Source of the DNA: Halodesulfovibrio sp.
Lineage (GTDB): Bacteria > Desulfobacterota > Desulfovibrionia > Desulfovibrionales > Desulfovibrionaceae
Direction of reading: 5' to 3'
DNA: 34,439 nucleotides
Assembly: GCF_015482765.1 (NCBI RefSeq)
Contig: NZ_JADMLB010000020.1
Span: 1 to 34,439 of the forward strand
Shown: in pieces, positions 4,263-19,275 of the stretch
Position numbering within the stretch: the first letter of the stretch is position 1
Layout of the letters: the number at the start of each line of letters is the position of its first letter
Translations under genes and position numbers: made by a program
The notes under the pieces: model-generated
Databases searched by the model: none
Told to the model about the DNA's origin: nothing
Seen by the model: the letters and a program-made list of their open reading frames with translations, nothing else

Positions 4263-4622
4263 GGAGTTGGACAGGTTATCGTCGCGCACAATTGTGCGGG
4301 GAGGAAAGTCCGGGCTCTAAAGGGCAGAGCGCTGGGTAACGCCCAGGGGGAGTGATCCTCGGAGAGTGCCACAGAAAGCAAACCGCCTGCAGTTTACTGC
4401 CGGTAAGGGTGAAACGGTGAGGTAAGAGCTCACCAGGTACCATGGTGACATGGTAGGCTAGGTAAACCCCGTTCAGAGCAAGACCAAATAGGAAAACAGT
4501 TACGACCGGCCCGGTCGTTGTTTTCGGGTAGGTTGCTTGAGGTTATGAGTAATCATAATCCTAGACGAATGATAACCGCCCTCTTCGGAGGGAGACAAAA
4601 CCCGGCTTATCGTCCTGACTCC
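4263..4622 (+). ncRNA. rnpB: RNase P RNA, bacterial class A
   Basis: This is the catalytic RNA of ribonuclease P, which trims the 5' leader of precursor tRNAs. Conserved segments appear in the right order: GAGGAAAGTCCGGGC at 4301-4315, GTGCCACAGAAA near 4367, GGTAAGGGTGAAACGGTG near 4402, and ACAAAACCCGGCTTAT near 4595. The ends were set by the P1 helix, where GGAGT..GGAC (4263-4271) pairs with GTCC..ACTCC (4612-4622). The length of about 360 nt is normal for class A. It begins 10 bases after the zinc-ribbon gene and ends just before a strong terminator. Confidence 0.96.
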
Positions 4623-4629
4623 ATATTTT

Positions 4630-4709: not shown

Positions 4710-5891
4710 ATGCATTGTTGGTCCATCATTCTTGCCGCCGGCTCAGGCACCCGACTCTCATCAGCCACTAACGGCGTAAAAAAACAATTTCTTGAATGGA
4801 AAGGTGCTCCGCTTTTTTGGCACTCCGCAATCACATTCTCTCATACAACACGAATGCGCGGCCTCATCTTCGTTTTTCCTGAAGAAGATATAGAAGAGGC
4901 GACAACCACGCTGAAAAACCTTGATTTCGGCCGACGCCTTGGCTTGCCATGGAAAGTTGTTTCAGGTGGTTCCCGCCGCCAGGATTCGGTTTATAATGGT
5001 CTTCAGGCACTTCCTTCCCAATGTACACATGTTTTTGTGCACGACTCTGCACGTCCTTTCTTCTCTGCAAAACTTGCAAACACACTTTTGGACTCTCTGG
5101 AAAACGAGAACCAAGCCGTCATTCCTGCCATTCCAGTTACTGACACCATAAAAGTTGCAGAAGCAAACAGCATCAGCCACACCCTTGACCGCTCTACACT
5201 CAGAGCATGTCAGACTCCGCAAGGTTTTGAGAAAAAACTTCTCGTGGAAGTTCATGAAAGATGTCGTGAAGAAGGATGGGAAGTTACTGATGACGCTTCC
5301 ATCGTAGAACAAGCTGGTCAACCAGTTGTTTTTGTTGATGGCGAAGTAACAAACAGTAAAATCACAACTCCGGAAGATTTAACGATGATTGAATCAAAAC
5401 AGATTTCTATACCCGTGCCTGTTACCGGATGGGGATACGATGTGCACAGCTATGGTGAAGGACGACCAATGAAACTCGGAGGTATTCCGATTCAAGGTGC
5501 TCCGGAAGTTGTTGCACATTCTGACGGCGATGTGTTGCTCCACGCTCTTTGTGACGCCCTTCTCGGCTGTATGGGCGAAGGGGATATTGGAGAACACTTC
5601 CCAGATTCTTCCGAAGAATTTGATAATATTTCTAGTGGCGTTTTGTTGAACGAAGTCTATGACAAGTTTCTCAAACGCGGCTACCGGTTAACTAATGTTG
5701 ATTTAACCATTATTGCTCAAGTTCCCCGACTTGTTCCTTGGAAACCGCAAATCAAAAAAAATATCTGCCGAATGCTTAAACTCAATACTGATCAAGTAAA
5801 TGTAAAAGCTACGACAGAAGAAAAACTTGGTTTTACTGGTGAGAAAAAAGGAATCAAGGCTGTAGCTGCTGTTATGGCGCTTCGAAGTTAA
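4710..5891 (+). CDS. ispDF: Bifunctional IspD/IspF of the MEP isoprenoid pathway
   Basis: This 393-residue fusion carries two enzymes of the non-mevalonate pathway. Residues 1 to about 230 are the MEP cytidylyltransferase, shown by AAGSGTRL (9-16), NGVKKQF (21-27), HDSARPF (111-117), RACQTPQGF (165-173) and TDDASIVE (193-200). Residues 236-393 are the cyclodiphosphate synthase, with the metal ligands Asp244 and His246 in YDVHSY, HSDGD at 270-274, His278, and GDIGEHFPDSS at 291-301. Each half looks complete. The fusion joins two non-consecutive steps (CDP-ME kinase acts between them) and is known from alpha-, epsilon- and some deltaproteobacteria. The gene appears monocistronic. The enzyme is soluble and cytoplasmic. 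Confidence 0.96.
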   Translation: MHCWSIILAAGSGTRLSSATNGVKKQFLEWKGAPLFWHSAITFSHTTRMRGLIFVFPEEDIEEATTTLKNLDFGRRLGLPWKVVSGGSRRQDSVYNGLQALPSQCTHVFVHDSARPFFSAKLANTLLDSLENENQAVIPAIPVTDTIKVAEANSISHTLDRSTLRACQTPQGFEKKLLVEVHERCREEGWEVTDDASIVEQAGQPVVFVDGEVTNSKITTPEDLTMIESKQISIPVPVTGWGYDVHSYGEGRPMKLGGIPIQGAPEVVAHSDGDVLLHALCDALLGCMGEGDIGEHFPDSSEEFDNISSGVLLNEVYDKFLKRGYRLTNVDLTIIAQVPRLVPWKPQIKKNICRMLKLNTDQVNVKATTEEKLGFTGEKKGIKAVAAVMALRS

Positions 5892-13766: not shown

Positions 13767-15716
13767 ATGACTCGTACAATCTATCAAATATTTCTATCAG
13801 CTACTCTTATCCTGCTGCTGGGTTTCCAGTCTACAGCGTATTCAAGCGACATGATGGATAACCCGCTTACTCCGCCAAACACCTTTACCCCGCAGGCGAC
13901 ACTTACAAGTTATCTTGATAACATTACAAAGGCATTTGCCATTCTCCAAGAAGCATTTGTTCTTGATATGAATTCCTCACGAATTTTTACTCATACACCT
14001 GAAGTTCTAAAACTACAGGAAGAGGCAAATTTGTATTTTCAAAAGGCAATTGACTGCCTTGATCTATCTAAAATCCCAGAAGTATACCGTGAAGAATATT
14101 CAAAAGAGGTTGTGATCCAACTTAAAGAAATATTGGATAGAATAAATCTGCCCGACCTCGGCATGGTGCCCGCCGGTAATAATCTTGGGCGAAAAGAAAT
14201 ACCTTTCTGGAGAATCCCCAAGACACCAATTGAAATGGTGTTAATCACGGAAGGGCTAAGAAATGGAGAATACCTATTCAGTGCTGAAACCGTAGGTAAG
14301 ATTCCAGAGCTATACGAAATGGCGAAACGTCTTCCCTACAAAACCCATGATACGGAAGACTTTTTCCAGTTCTATATATCAACCCCGGGCAGCCTGCTTC
14401 CACCAAAGTGGTTTCACTTCATTCCTGCATGGATGTCTTCTGAAATCTATTATGGCGAAACCCCATTTCAATGGCTGATGCTCGCCCTTTCATTTATATT
14501 TCTCGTAACATTTGTAGGAACAACATATAGAGTTTGCAGCCATAGAATTGATCCGGATCGCCCTATTCTTTCAGATTTTTACAAACTCACTCTCCCCCTT
14601 CTTCTTACGGGACTTGCATATTTGCTGATGTACTTTCTTGAAAGTATCGTCAACCTTTCCGGTGCCACATTGTATTACACTACGGGCATACTGGATGTCA
14701 TAAAATGGTTAAGTGCTGCTTGGGCGATTGTTGTCGGCGCAAGCCTCGCCGCAAACATTTTTATAGCAAGTCCAAACGTAAACCCCCAATCAATTGATGC
14801 AAGTCTTATTCGCACGGTTGCATACTTAAGCAGTATATTCATGGCAATTTGTGTGCTCTTTTATGGAGGATCAAACTTAGGACTTCCACTTATTCCAATT
14901 GTTACTGGCTTTGGTGTGATAGGCCTTGCAGTTTCTCTTGCTGCCAAACCGACAATTGAAAACATCATTGGTGGATTGACACTCTTTGCCGATCGTCCAG
15001 TGCGTATCGGTGAATATTGTGCCTTTGAAAATCAATGGGGAAAAGTTCTTCATATCGGTCTGCGCTCAACCCGAATCAGAGCCGGAGACAGAACTGTAAT
15101 CTCTATTCCAAACGCAATCTTTTCCCAAATGCAGCTCGTCAATATATCACTCCGAGATTTATACCGCTTCAATGAGTACATCCATATTCGTCAAGAAACT
15201 TCAGGCACGCAACTTAGGTGGATTTTAGCAAAGATCCGCGAAATGTTGGTCGCACACCCAGAAGTACTTTCAAAGTATCTTTACAGAGTAAAATTTGACT
15301 CATACAGCGAGCATGCACAAACCGTACGAGTGTGCACCTTTATTAACGGTAATCTTGGATGGGAGGAGTACCTTGATGTACGCCAAGACCTTCTTTTCAG
15401 GATAGGTGAAATCATACGAGAGGCCGGCACTGATTTAGCATACCCGTCTCAAACGATTTACCTTGCCCGTGACAAAAAGAGTCTTGCTCCTACAGAAAGT
15501 GTGCTTAACGATATGAAACAAAACGATACAGAGTACCCTTATCCAAACACTTCAGAACAACGTTATGATGAACTGCTGGACAGATTAAAATACCCACCGA
15601 CGTCAGAAGAAGATTTCGAAGGATTACCGCTCGAAGAAAAAAAAGAGGACTTACCTGAAACTTCAGAAGAAGATGAAGACGATAAAAAAGAAACAGTGAA
15701 GGTAATGAGTCGATAA
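13767..15716 (+). CDS. MscS-family mechanosensitive channel
   Basis: This 649-residue protein is a large member of the small-conductance mechanosensitive channel family, which opens when membrane tension rises and releases solutes. Residues 1 to about 25 are a signal peptide. About 200 periplasmic residues follow, then roughly five hydrophobic segments from residue 231. The pore-lining helix and beta domain are at about 380-460: GFGVIGLAVSLAAKPTIENI, ADRPVRIGEY, and a GLRSTRIRAGDRTVISIPN stretch typical of MscS. The last 60 residues are a highly acidic cytoplasmic tail rich in Glu and Asp. GGGAG precedes the ATG. The gene converges on trkA-trkH and shares a terminator with it, so two osmotic systems stand side by side. 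Confidence 0.92.
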   Translation: MTRTIYQIFLSATLILLLGFQSTAYSSDMMDNPLTPPNTFTPQATLTSYLDNITKAFAILQEAFVLDMNSSRIFTHTPEVLKLQEEANLYFQKAIDCLDLSKIPEVYREEYSKEVVIQLKEILDRINLPDLGMVPAGNNLGRKEIPFWRIPKTPIEMVLITEGLRNGEYLFSAETVGKIPELYEMAKRLPYKTHDTEDFFQFYISTPGSLLPPKWFHFIPAWMSSEIYYGETPFQWLMLALSFIFLVTFVGTTYRVCSHRIDPDRPILSDFYKLTLPLLLTGLAYLLMYFLESIVNLSGATLYYTTGILDVIKWLSAAWAIVVGASLAANIFIASPNVNPQSIDASLIRTVAYLSSIFMAICVLFYGGSNLGLPLIPIVTGFGVIGLAVSLAAKPTIENIIGGLTLFADRPVRIGEYCAFENQWGKVLHIGLRSTRIRAGDRTVISIPNAIFSQMQLVNISLRDLYRFNEYIHIRQETSGTQLRWILAKIREMLVAHPEVLSKYLYRVKFDSYSEHAQTVRVCTFINGNLGWEEYLDVRQDLLFRIGEIIREAGTDLAYPSQTIYLARDKKSLAPTESVLNDMKQNDTEYPYPNTSEQRYDELLDRLKYPPTSEEDFEGLPLEEKKEDLPETSEEDEDDKKETVKVMSR

Positions 15717-15757
15717 AAAAAAGCCTGATGAGTTATAGCTCATCAGGCTTTTTTTTA
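15713..15757. terminator. Shared bidirectional terminator of mscS and trkH
   Basis: A perfect 12-bp stem, AAGCCTGATGAG (15721-15732) with CTCATCAGGCTT (15739-15750), has a 6-base loop and runs of A and T on its flanks. The T run overlaps the trkH stop codon (15755-15757 on the minus strand). One hairpin therefore ends both transcripts. Confidence 0.93.
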
Positions 15758-17203
15758 TTTTTTCCAAAACTCAGGAACAAAAAGAATAAAGACCGTATAG
15801 ATTTCCAAACGCCCTAGAAGCATACAAAGGGTCAAAACCCACTTTGCAAATGCCGGTAAATGAGCAAAGTTTTCGGCCGGTCCAACAGACCCCAACCCCG
15901 GACCAATATTCCCTAAACACGCCACTACCGCAGCAAAAGAGGTGAGAACATCAAGCCCTGTTGCAGAAAGCAGAAAACCGGAAAGAACAAACACAGCCAA
16001 ATAAATTACGAAAAAACCAAGCACGCCGGACATAACACTTGCCTGAACAGTTCGCCCGCCAAGCTTAATATGCTTAACAGCTCTTGGGTGAACAAGCCTG
16101 AACAGTTCATGGTAGCCCTGCTTTAATAGCAGTTGAAGGCGCATACATTTCATACCGCCACCGGTTGAACCGGCACAACCACCAAGAAACATCAGGAAAA
16201 GCAATAACGCTTGAGCCAATGGTGCCCACTGCTCATAATCAGCCGTCGCGAAACCGGTTGTCGTACAAATTGAAACAACCTGAAAAGCTGCATACTGAAG
16301 GGACGACGCAAAGGAATCATAATTTGAATCATACACCGTAAACGTGATGATCGCGGTAAATAAAACAATTATGATTGTATAAAATCGAAACTCAGAATCC
16401 TTCCAAAAACACTTGGCATCGCCTGCCAGAGCCCTGAAATGCAGAGAAAAGTTTGCACCAGCGATAAACATAAAGATTGTGATAACCCAATCAATATATG
16501 CGCTGTCATAATAGCCTGCAGAAGTATTCTTAGTTGAAAAACCACCTGTAGCCATTGTACCGAAGGTGTGACAGATGGCATCAAACAAATCCATCCCGCC
16601 AAACATCAACAATACACAGAGCAAGAAAGAGAAAAGAACGTATACCTTCCACAATGCAGCAGCAGTATCTTTAATACGCGGCTTCAATTTGTCCGGCACA
16701 GGGCCGGGCACTTCAGCTTTGTACAACTGCATACCACCCACCCCTAGAAAAGGAAGAATGGCCAAGGAAAGGACAATAATTCCCATCCCGCCTAACCAGT
16801 GAGTTAAACTACGCCACATAAGAAGGCTTTTTGCGACAGATTCAATATCTGTCATGACGCTGGAACCCGTGGTAGTAAAACCGGAAATTGATTCAAAAAC
16901 GCAGTCAGTCCATGTTGGAAAAACATTTCCGAAGTAGAACGGCAGAGCACCTGCTAAGCCGGCAGCAAGCCAACCCACAGCTACAATTGCCATCCCTTCT
17001 CTATGGTTCATCATGAGTTTTTGTTTTGGACGGAACATCAAAAAAAGAGCAGCCCCACTCCAAAGAGTAACCACGGTTGAAAGCAACAGCGGGATCAAGC
17101 CCTCATCCTGATAATACAACGCCCAGCCAATAGGAAAGAACATCGTGAGACCAACAGCCCCAAGCAATGCTCCTATAATATAAAGGCAATATGTTACTCG
17201 CAT
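15755..17203 (-). CDS. trkH: Potassium uptake channel subunit TrkH
   Basis: This 482-residue integral membrane protein forms the ion path of the Trk potassium system. It has about ten hydrophobic stretches arranged as four M1-P-M2 repeats. The glycine filter residues are visible in ISGFTTTGSSV, GTMATGGFST, ICTTTGFATA and CLGNIGPGLG. SLTHWLGGMGI and the GGCAGSTGGGMK segment are also family motifs. The start is 7 bases after the trkA stop, so trkA and trkH form a tight operon with the regulatory subunit first. The length matches the TrkH/KtrB range. Expression should depend on the structured leader before trkA. Confidence 0.95.
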   Translation of the reverse strand: MRVTYCLYIIGALLGAVGLTMFFPIGWALYYQDEGLIPLLLSTVVTLWSGAALFLMFRPKQKLMMNHREGMAIVAVGWLAAGLAGALPFYFGNVFPTWTDCVFESISGFTTTGSSVMTDIESVAKSLLMWRSLTHWLGGMGIIVLSLAILPFLGVGGMQLYKAEVPGPVPDKLKPRIKDTAAALWKVYVLFSFLLCVLLMFGGMDLFDAICHTFGTMATGGFSTKNTSAGYYDSAYIDWVITIFMFIAGANFSLHFRALAGDAKCFWKDSEFRFYTIIIVLFTAIITFTVYDSNYDSFASSLQYAAFQVVSICTTTGFATADYEQWAPLAQALLLFLMFLGGCAGSTGGGMKCMRLQLLLKQGYHELFRLVHPRAVKHIKLGGRTVQASVMSGVLGFFVIYLAVFVLSGFLLSATGLDVLTSFAAVVACLGNIGPGLGSVGPAENFAHLPAFAKWVLTLCMLLGRLEIYTVFILFVPEFWKK

Positions 17204-17210
17204 ACAGTAC

Positions 17211-18608
17211 CTACACGGATTGCAACGTTACTAACAGAGCTTGTTCAACTCGTGCAACGTTTTCCGGAGTAGTCAGAATAATGATGCGGTCATCAGGATG
17301 GATCACACTGTCACCACTTGGGATAATCACTTCTCTTCCACGCATGATACCGATAACAAGCGTACCTTTCGGGAAAGGAAGATCTTTAATTGGCCTGCCT
17401 ACAATTTCTGAATTATTTTCGGCAATTGCCTCTAATGCTTCAGCACCTTCACCGCTGATGGATACGGAAGAAAGCACCTTACCCTGACGAACATACTGCA
17501 AAATAGAGTTAACCGCAGATAATCGAGGTGACACCGAATGGTCAATACCAACAGCCTTAATCAAAGGCTGGTACGCCAACTTGTTCACACGGGTAACGGT
17601 CTTTTTCACACCCATATTTTTAGCAAGCAATGAAGTGAGAATATTCGTTTCTTCATCAGATGTAAGGGAGATAACAACATCCATCTCTGCAATATTTTCT
17701 TCCTGCAGAAACTCCTGATCCGTCCCGTCACCACAAAGCACAAGGGGAGCATCAAGTTTTTCGGCTAAAACACTGCATCGATCTGGGTTAGAGTCCACGA
17801 TCTTTGTATGAATGCCTTTTTTCTCGAAGAGAGAGGCAAGACGGAAACCAATGTTGCCGCCACCAATAATAAACGCGTTCTTAATAGGATCAAGACTACG
17901 TCCGCACGCATTGCGAACAGACTCAATACTTGTGTCCTTACATACGAAGTACACTATATCGTCTTGCTGTATTCTATCGCTACCACCTGGAATAATGAGG
18001 GCGTCATTACGTACAATGGCAGCAATAATAACGTCTTTATCAGGCACAACGCTTCGAAAGTTCATCAATGTTTGATCAAGAAGCGGGCCATGCCCCATAC
18101 GAACACCAATCAGTTTGATCTTACCTGCTGCGAACTCGTTATAGTCAACAGCACCCGGCATAGATAACAAACGATCGATACTCTTAATAACTTCAACTTC
18201 AGGGTTGATAATAGCAGAAATATTGAGAAGATTTTCTGAAAGCTCTTTACTGTATCCACTGTATTCTTCATTACGAATACGTGCGAGCTTCTTTGCGTTT
18301 GGCGCAATAATATTCGCGAACAAACAGGCGATAATGTTGACTTCATCGCTGTCAGTCACTGCCAGAAAAATATCTGAATCAGCAGCGCCAGCATTTTTTA
18401 GCACTTCTGGACTGGAACCAGAACCAAGAATGGTCTGCACATCAAGAACCTCTGAGATTCTTCGCAGCGCATTTTCATCCTGATCAATCACAACAACCTG
18501 CTTATGTTCCTGAGCAAGTCTGTGTGAGATATGATAACCAACTTCGCCAGCTCCGACGATAACAACTTTAAGCTGGTCAACCTTAGGTTCCCGATGGAAT
18601 AAACGCAT
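17211..18608 (-). CDS. trkA: Trk potassium regulatory subunit TrkA
   Basis: This 465-residue cytoplasmic protein gates TrkH. It is a duplicated RCK protein. The first nucleotide-binding half has VVIVGAGEVGYHISHRL with the acidic strand end VVVIDQD, and the second has AFIIGGGNIGFRLASL with KIVDSNPDRC. Each half is followed by a TrkA_C domain (LIGVRMG.. and IVGRPIKDLPF..). The ATG at 18608 is preferred, with GGGAG 11 bases upstream; the longer frame from TTG 18626 begins inside that site and adds six residues. Ligands in the family are NAD(H) or ATP/ADP, which adjust potassium uptake to energy state. The gene is first in the trkA-trkH operon, behind a leader of about 215 nt. Confidence 0.95.
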   Translation of the reverse strand: MRLFHREPKVDQLKVVIVGAGEVGYHISHRLAQEHKQVVVIDQDENALRRISEVLDVQTILGSGSSPEVLKNAGAADSDIFLAVTDSDEVNIIACLFANIIAPNAKKLARIRNEEYSGYSKELSENLLNISAIINPEVEVIKSIDRLLSMPGAVDYNEFAAGKIKLIGVRMGHGPLLDQTLMNFRSVVPDKDVIIAAIVRNDALIIPGGSDRIQQDDIVYFVCKDTSIESVRNACGRSLDPIKNAFIIGGGNIGFRLASLFEKKGIHTKIVDSNPDRCSVLAEKLDAPLVLCGDGTDQEFLQEENIAEMDVVISLTSDEETNILTSLLAKNMGVKKTVTRVNKLAYQPLIKAVGIDHSVSPRLSAVNSILQYVRQGKVLSSVSISGEGAEALEAIAENNSEIVGRPIKDLPFPKGTLVIGIMRGREVIIPSGDSVIHPDDRIIILTTPENVARVEQALLVTLQSV

Positions 18609-18630
18609 AAAGAGAGTAACTCCCAAAAAC

Positions 18631-18822
18631 GTGAGACATAAAAAAAGTTAGGGGCATACGCCCCGAATTAGTGACCACTTGAAGATACCTGCCACTAAAA
18701 ATGTCTCACAGCTAATTGAAATCTCAACAGCATAACAAGTGCACACACCACACCTTTTACACTGCATTGAAACAGACGTAACAATTACATCAGCACTTTT
18801 TATTGGAAGGTATCTTGGTCAA
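18631..18822 (-). promoter_or_regulatory. Structured trkA leader: candidate riboswitch or attenuator
   Basis: Read on the minus strand, the leader opens with GACCAAGATACCT (18820-18808), which pairs with AGGTATCTT (18690-18682) and, after a 5-base bulge, GGTC (18676-18673). That is a 13-bp closing helix around about 115 nt. Inside, AAGTGC (18798-18793) can pair with GCACTT (18742-18737). A compact terminator follows at 18664-18640. Then ATGTCTCAC (18639-18631) is the exact complement of GTGAGACAT (18709-18701) inside the enclosed region, so it could form a competing long-range helix. I recognise no known riboswitch class, and the c-di-AMP (ydaO) consensus is not evident. The ligand, if any, is unknown. 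Confidence 0.5.
18640..18664 (-). terminator. Intrinsic terminator inside the trkA leader
   Basis: On the minus strand GGGGC pairs with GCCCC across a GTAT loop (18664-18651), followed by TAAC and seven T (18646-18640). It lies about 32 bases before the trkA start, so it would stop transcription before the gene unless it is prevented from forming. Confidence 0.7.
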
Positions 18823-18828
18823 TAAAAA

Positions 18829-18857
18829 AATTTACCAGATTCAAGATACAACATCAA
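18829..18857 (-). promoter_or_regulatory. Promoter of the trkA leader
   Basis: On the minus strand TTGATG (18857-18852) and TAAATT (18834-18829) are 17 bases apart, each matching consensus at four of six positions. The start would be near 18822, two bases before the closing helix of the leader. It lies just past the rpsT terminator. Confidence 0.5.
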
Positions 18858-18886
18858 CCAAGCAGAGTAATTGAAAAAAAGGAAAG

Positions 18887-18918
18887 AAAAAAAGCCCGCT
18901 TGAAAGCGGGCTTTTTTT
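18887..18918 (-). terminator. Terminator of rpsT
   Basis: GCCCGCT (18894-18900) pairs with AGCGGGC (18905-18911) over a TGAA loop, with seven A and seven T on the flanks. On the minus strand it starts 21 bases after the rpsT stop. It is symmetric and could act on both strands. Confidence 0.93.
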
Positions 18919-18938
18919 GAAAAGTCAAGCAGGACAGA

Positions 18939-19205
18939 CTAGGCTTTAATGCCAGCAACAGCCTTGCTCAGACGGGAGATCTTGCGTCCAGCGGTTTTCC
19001 AATGGATAACGCCTTTACCGGCTGCTTTATCCAGAATACCGTTAGCTACGCGGAGAGCTTCCTGAGCTTTCGCCAGATCTTCTTCGAGTACTGCTGCGCG
19101 AACGTCTTTAACAACGTTACGTACGCGAGTTTTCATTGCGCGGTTGCGTGCAGCACGCTTAAGGGACTGACGATGTCTCTTGATGGCAGATTTATGGTTA
19201 GCCAA
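18939..19205 (-). CDS. rpsT: 30S ribosomal protein S20
   Basis: This 88-residue, very basic protein is S20, a primary 16S rRNA binder in the body of the small subunit. [20 protein letters not shown] at the N-terminus and the [21 protein letters not shown] segment are diagnostic. Translation starts at a TTG codon, 6 bases after an excellent GGAGGAAA site. Escherichia coli rpsT also uses UUG, where the weak codon takes part in autogenous control, so the same may hold here. The gene stands alone, with its own terminator and a TTGACA element upstream. Confidence 0.97.
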
Positions 19206-19275
19206 GGTAATTTCCTCCAGAACTATATGGTAGTAAGATTCAAAATAAAGACCTTACTGGAACACGGGAAATAGC

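Follow-up and report, generated by a model that had tools for sequence, protein, structure and literature searches.

Riboswitches usually, though not of strict necessity, stand before several related genes or recur in many species. Those that sense c-di-AMP commonly act through a terminator, and translation-level riboswitches and RNA thermosensors are structured leaders in which alternative folds may cover or uncover the ribosome site. A c-di-AMP riboswitch controls the potassium uptake operon kdpFABC in Bacillus thuringiensis (PMC6488665), and the Na+ riboswitch (DUF1646 motif, PMC9337991) is a further cation-sensing leader; the terms trk and ktr are absent from the main text of the latter report. 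The leader analyzed here precedes trkA in Halodesulfovibrio. No report of it was found in a literature search by title and beginning of the abstract, among the matches listed, most subscription journals lying outside the search.

A preliminary description of this DNA had proposed a leader with a closing helix, a terminator and a competing helix, and had suggested a comparison with Rfam. In the window (the whole stretch of 34,439 nt that was analyzed), no Rfam 15 family exceeded its gathering score within the leader; the only match that did so was RNase P at 4263-4626, on the plus strand, a class A RNA gene. A permissive Rfam scan of 18550-18950 returned 57 matches, all below the cut-offs. The sole match lying wholly within the leader on its strand was mir-4703 (18.4 bits against a cut-off of 88), and other matches overlapped the rpsT terminator. 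The c-di-AMP consensus of the ydaO type had been reported as not evident, which held: RF00379 remained below the cut-off in the window and exceeded its gathering score in none of ten genomes of the genus, while B. subtilis and C. glutamicum, among 14 control genomes, matched. Two matches to the diadenylate cyclase domain were obtained in each of the ten genus genomes.

The trkAH unit and its upstream region

Ten Halodesulfovibrio genomes (G000-G009) were compared, with the trkA loci L001-L010. The near set, L001-L006, consists of the window's own locus and five others with TrkA proteins 94-100% identical (H. spirochaetisodalis TrkA is 94% identical to that of the window); in the distant congeners, L007-L010, TrkA is 69-70% identical. 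The trkAH unit and the sites that delimit it are as follows.

15755-17203, minus strand, same strand as trkA: trkH, potassium channel subunit (Pfam TrkH, 5.6e-82)
17211-18608, minus strand: trkA, potassium uptake regulator of 465 amino acids (Pfam TrkA_N, 1.2e-54; TrkA_C, 1e-27)
18829-18857, minus strand: promoter-like site TTGATG-17-TAAATT of the trkAH unit, recognized by sequence and kept in the six near species
18887-18918, minus strand: terminator after rpsT, dividing rpsT from the trkAH unit (14-pair stem with a T run directly after it, -19.5 kcal/mol)

The gene upstream of the leader, which we take from its sequence to be rpsT, apparently starts with TTG at 19205. Before and at this start (19200-19274, minus strand), 71 of the 75 bases, counted to the second codon, do not vary among the six near species, and the stretch is possibly a ribosomal-protein leader. 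A gene for an MscS-type mechanosensitive channel (13767-15716, plus strand) is convergent with trkAH. Elsewhere in the window, a single frame at 4710-5891 (plus strand) encodes a protein with IspD and YgbB (IspF-type) domains.

The promoter of the preliminary description is present as a promoter-like sequence. Its hexamers, TTGATG (18857-18852) and TAAATT (18834-18829, both minus strand), lie 17 nt apart, and TTGATG and this spacing were retained in all six near species, with TAAATT, TAACTT, TAACTT, TAAATT, TAGCTT and TAAATT as second hexamer in L001 to L006. However, only 8 of 12 positions agree with the consensus by hand count, and because this falls under the 9-of-12 threshold, the site is absent from the promoter scan list.

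Short reading frames in the leader were compared as well, as candidates for a leader peptide of an attenuator. Among frames of at least seven codons, none had a start common to all six near species. A 10-codon frame occupies the extreme 5' end of the leader in L001, L002 and L003 (starts TTG, ATG and ATG); the window copy, at 18790-18822 (minus strand), starts with TTG and ends TGC TGA. At this end, inspection by eye showed a frame of equal length with an ATT start in L005 and a 7-codon frame with ATG in L006. A frame beginning at an ATG inside hairpin H4 was seen in L001, L004 and L006. By the rule of the script, no ribosome-site motif lies upstream of the 5'-end 10-codon frame or the H4-ATG frame. 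The longest leader frame of L001 (39 codons, ATG at -159) was not matched in both start and length by any frame of the other five leaders.

Predicted folds of the leader

Folding predictions and comparison of the near leaders yielded the following elements, listed in the direction of transcription.

18808-18820, minus strand: 5' arm of helix P1, GACCAAGATACCT, from the minimum-energy fold; retained in L001, L003, L005 and L006
18792-18806, minus strand: 5' side of the P1 extension, CCA plus AAAAGUGCU, pairing with bases in 18706-18692
18775-18791, minus strand: hairpin H1, GATGTAA/TTACGTC, pairs kept with G-U exchanges
18721-18773, minus strand: P2, a 53-nt hairpin of diverged sequence, folded as a single hairpin in each of the six species
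18701-18710, minus strand: 5' arm of helix PX, TGTGAGACAT, 7 of 10 positions invariant, 92% conserved
18668-18698, minus strand: hairpin H3, TTAGTGGC/GTCACTAA, 87.5% of cells paired in six species
18651-18664, minus strand: hairpin H4, GGGGCGTATGCCCC, five pairs, all invariant in six species
18640-18646, minus strand: T run four bases after H4, seven T; TTCCTTT in L005
18630-18639, minus strand: 3' arm of PX, ATGTCTCACG, 8 of 10 positions invariant, 92% conserved
18612-18624, minus strand: hairpin GGGAG-UUA-CUCUC holding the presumed ribosome-binding GGGAG, 12 of 13 positions invariant

The 214-nt leader of L001 folds at -65.2 kcal/mol (z -3.96), and none of 200 shuffles was as stable. With 150 dinucleotide shuffles each, z was -4.02, -5.61, -1.10, -3.67, -4.08 and -2.11 for L001 to L006, the value for L002 being that of the part after its extra bases. 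No shuffle was as stable as L001, L002, L004 or L005, and 3 of 150 were as stable as L006. The L003 leader folded no better than shuffles (24 of 150 as stable), nor did the distant leaders L007-L010 (z -1.08, -1.43, -0.55 and -0.05; 150 shuffles each). The P2 segments are 53-59 nt long with a mean pairwise identity of 0.69 in six species, and z was -4.39, -4.25, -0.88, -2.19, -4.41 and -1.30 for L001 to L006. Among 500 shuffles, as good a P2 was reached by 0 for L001, 0 for L002 and 1 for L005, and by 15 for the weaker hairpin of L004; P2 was not better than shuffles in L006 (50 of 500) and L003 (102 of 500). In L003, L005 and L006 the H1 pairs are kept through G-U exchanges, with one mismatch in L005.

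P1 forms between GACCAAGATACCT (18820-18808) and the two strands AGGTATCTT (18690-18682) and GGTC (18676-18673), all on the minus strand. These strands were found where the preliminary description had placed them, and the minimum-energy fold predicted for the 214-nt L001 leader includes the pairing. P1, which carries most weight in that description, proves to be the less conserved helix. By inspection of the sequences, L004 lacks the 5' arm and has an altered 3' arm, and in L002 the 5' arm is mutated and displaced. P1 is thus absent or damaged in two of the six species, and therefore a P1/PX switch cannot be general. Across the four species that keep P1, 87.5% of the cells of the structure are paired. 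As free duplex, P1 was matched by none of 300 shuffles in L001, 6 in L003 and 9 in L005, and it was no better than shuffles in L006 (94 of 300 as good). A genus-wide P1 was considered and rejected: closing helices were seen by eye in L007-L009 (CCAAAG/CTTTGG, ACCAGA/TCTGGT), but shuffles paired as well in 107, 42, 53 and 121 of 300 cases for L007 to L010.

PX is formed by GTGAGACAT (18709-18701) and ATGTCTCAC (18639-18631) on the minus strand, which are exact complements, as had been claimed. A separated inverted repeat of at least 9 bp was found in 107 of 2000 shuffles of the L001 leader, so such a repeat is not rare alone; in our comparison of sequences, conservation is what lifts PX above chance. 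The PX pairing is kept throughout the six near species; 98.2% of PX cells are paired, in an alignment (A2) in which two bases of L002 are misplaced and leave gaps in pairs 9 and 10. For the whole PX-H3-H4 domain in six species 94.7% of cells are paired, a figure reached by 96 of 500 shuffles; slid versions of the domain have 30.6-54.7%.

Covariation, which the preliminary description had named as a check, is thin in the alignments of six (PX) and four (P1) sequences. PX carries one compensatory change, C-G to U-A in L004, and one double change was reached by 156 of 500 shuffles; the PX domain shows no double change in the four-species alignment. P1 carries three double changes, every one in L006, in a structure taken from the L001 fold, a choice that favours P1; at least three were reached by 17 of 500 shuffles, and slid versions gave 0 or 1. 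Two doubly changed pairs belong to the P1 extension, which stays paired in L006 while three pairs of the adjacent H3 are broken there. The case for PX is one of conservation of both arms rather than of covariation, as far as aligned sequences can tell.

The two folds draw on common bases. The P1 3' strands AGGTATCTT and GGTC sit in the loop and 3' arm of H3, and the partners of the P1 extension (18706-18692) overlap part of the PX 5' arm and part of H3; in the alignment, overlap occurs at columns 126-128, 131-132, 135-137 and 156-159. As P1 and PX/H3 use the same bases, they exclude each other, and the competing helices of the preliminary description are confirmed in this respect. This exclusion and the conservation of sequence and pairing were computed directly. 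The best fold contained P1 in L001 and L006 and PX in L002, L004 and L005; in L003, P1 was 0.5 kcal/mol better by minimum energy and the ensemble favoured PX. Both states were forced in L001, L003, L005 and L006, and P1 was not forced in L002 and L004, which are without the 5' motif.

GGGAG was mostly paired in five of the predicted ensembles (L001 and L003-L006) and about half open in that of L002. It was also largely paired in both forced states of L001, L003, L005 and L006, apart from the last two bases in L006 and one base in L005, which were open in the forced PX state. Therefore, no clean ON state is predicted, and the direction of control is unreadable from the energies. The single change in this hairpin, in L004, falls in the loop. 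A helix between the P1 5' arm and GGGAG was seen in the four-species consensus fold and, on reading the predicted pairings, when PX was forced in L001, L005 and L006; the registers differ and L003 is without it, and such an anti-ribosome-site helix is not claimed.

Conservation and distribution of the leader

Four-fold degenerate sites of trkA have a mean pairwise identity of 0.525 among the six near species, and unconstrained sequence has therefore diverged far. Relative to L001, the PX arms are each 92% conserved, H4 with the following TAAC 94% and the GGGAGTTACTCTC hairpin 98%, compared with 76% for the region between H1 and PX, 76% for H3 and 51% for the P1 5' arm (which L004 lacks); in this alignment L002 is represented by its last 190 bases only, so that the promoter, P1 and part of the H1 segments are scored as mismatched for it. 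Conservation to L001 is 94% over the 31-nt stretch that begins with the PX 3' arm and runs up to the start codon of trkA, and 26 of its 31 positions are invariant. L002 has about 200 extra bases within the leader (about 1121-1320 in G007), which in their own genome match themselves and two weak partial places only.

Two covariance models were used, R1 (PX-H3-H4, built from all six near leaders) and R2 (the whole leader, built from four). Of the ten genus genomes, six gave an R1 match ahead of trkA, with E values of 1.7e-19 to 6.6e-14; the four distant congeners gave none. Among 199 family genomes at E 0.1, it returned the six near leaders and one further match (L141 in G192, 28.1 bits, E 0.019) that was judged chance, with no TrkA-like frame nearby by eye. 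Nothing beyond the six near species was found by R1 in 297 class genomes at E 0.01 or by R2 in the 199 family genomes at E 0.01. The family and class sets overlap, contain the genus and are samples, and they were scored with stricter filters, so that weak relatives could be missed. An R1 match away from trkA (L140 in G009, 21.7 bits, E 0.64) and three R2 matches at E 0.70-0.80 were not counted. In L002, R2 gave a second, weak match (25.4 bits) at 1079-1269, over the 5' part of the leader and most of the extra bases; this match is possibly a diverged second copy of the leader. Since the same sequences built the models, most matches arise by construction, and the informative result of these searches is the absence elsewhere: there is one convincing place per genome, in six species of one genus.

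H4 and transcription termination

The preliminary description had read GGGGC/GCCCC with seven T as a terminator. The strings are present, and H4 is the sole instance of GGGGC-4-GCCCC in the window. The T run is less convincing: TAAC separates it from the stem in all six near species and it is broken in L005. As the seven T begin four bases past the stem, the label terminator is an interpretation, and from its sequence H4 is doubtful as one. H4 with TAAC occurs at zero mismatches once per genome in the six near genomes, before trkA, and at two mismatches in a few places elsewhere. In three of the six near species H4 is a perfect palindrome (GGGGCATATGCCCC), and among the ten genus genomes the exact palindrome is found only before trkA.

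The attenuation proposed at H4 is not supported. The PX 3' arm is transcribed after H4 and the T run; therefore PX cannot prevent termination at H4, and classical attenuation fits badly. P1 and H3 both end before H4. No conserved upstream antiterminator for the H4 arms was found in five leaders (L002 being left out), where the best upstream pairing amounted to -4.1 to -8.6 kcal/mol compared with -9.2 kcal/mol for H4, L005 coming nearest.

Discussion

Judged by its sequence, the trkAH leader is real, conserved, structured and lineage-specific, and its role as a cis-regulator is plausible. We propose, with a probability of roughly 0.55, that the minus-strand region between about 18824 and 18609 is the 5' UTR of trkAH and a lineage-specific cis-acting RNA that acts on the start of trkA translation or on message stability. 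Leader RNA would start from the TTGATG-17-TAAATT promoter. In one fold, the 5' end would be joined by P1 and its extension to the region of H3; the alternative would be a three-way domain of PX, H3 and H4, closed by PX and ending five bases before GGGAG. We infer that a change of fold in the cell would alter TrkA output, with transcription termination as the less likely level of control; the more likely site of action would be GGGAG, the presumed ribosome-binding sequence that lies five bases after PX. A cation, c-di-AMP or a protein may serve as signal.

Several other readings of the locus have to be weighed against this cis-acting 5' UTR. The leader might be a ligand-binding riboswitch of a new class, with P1, H1 and P2 as sensing domain and PX, H3 and H4 as output domain. 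Such an element would fit with a conserved structure ahead of a single operon, with folds that exclude each other and with the absence of an Rfam match over cut-off, and also with the diadenylate cyclase domains in genomes that yet have no known c-di-AMP RNA. In known riboswitches, the aptamer is usually the most conserved part. Here, the presumed sensing domain is less conserved, as seen in the P1 5' arm and the P2 region, and the element has a single convincing place in each of these genomes and none beyond the six species, which makes this reading unlikely. Its more specific form would be a new riboswitch class, young and restricted to this lineage, that chooses between P1 and PX, senses a cation or c-di-AMP and controls potassium uptake; this, too, we regard as unlikely. 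That H4 is a perfect palindrome in half of the near species and, like the ribosome-site hairpin, very conserved could instead mean that a regulatory protein recognizes GGGGCATATGCCCC or the PX arms in RNA or DNA and that the folds are incidental. Operators of global regulators are not confined in this manner to one place before one gene, although two-mismatch versions of the palindrome do occur elsewhere, and the change in L004 alters both PX arms as pairing predicts; a protein site is a similarly weak contender.

The two readings that treat H4 as the end of a transcript fare worse. For transcription to be attenuated by H4 and its T run under control of P1 or PX speak the invariance of the GC-rich stem in six species and the seven T nearby in L001. 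Against it stand the late T run with its TTCCTTT variant in L005, an upstream pairing that is weaker than H4 and not conserved in place, and the order of synthesis, in which the PX 3' arm follows H4; the rpsT terminator is moreover far stronger. We hold attenuation to be improbable. An independent small RNA that stops at H4, while trkA is reached by readthrough or from another promoter, would account for a promoter-like site of its own, the compact fold and the hairpin with T run. It would need the same weak terminator, however, and the strong conservation continues past the supposed end to the start of trkA; the scan lists no second promoter between H4 and trkA (it also misses the presumed main promoter). 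This reading appears very improbable.

If the cis-acting leader is as proposed, RNA control would join the protein and c-di-AMP controls of potassium uptake, in marine sulfate reducers. The leader would be a very young regulatory element, of which one close relative has lost one fold and another carries about 200 extra bases, and the close relatives would be a set of natural variants in which the importance of each helix could be examined.

Among known systems, the c-di-AMP (ydaO/yuaA) riboswitch RF00379 resembles the trkA leader in its position before a potassium uptake operon (PMC6488665). It differs in that the leader has no RF00379 match over cut-off in the window or in ten genus genomes, and its terminator mode fits badly on the trkA leader. 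The Na+ riboswitch (DUF1646 motif, PMC9337991) shares with the leader the character of a cation-sensing element that the leader may have, but no Rfam family exceeded its gathering score there. Translation-level riboswitches and RNA thermosensors differ from the trkA leader in that no clean ON state is predicted for the latter; they are like it in that its alternative folds, too, may bury or expose the ribosome site.
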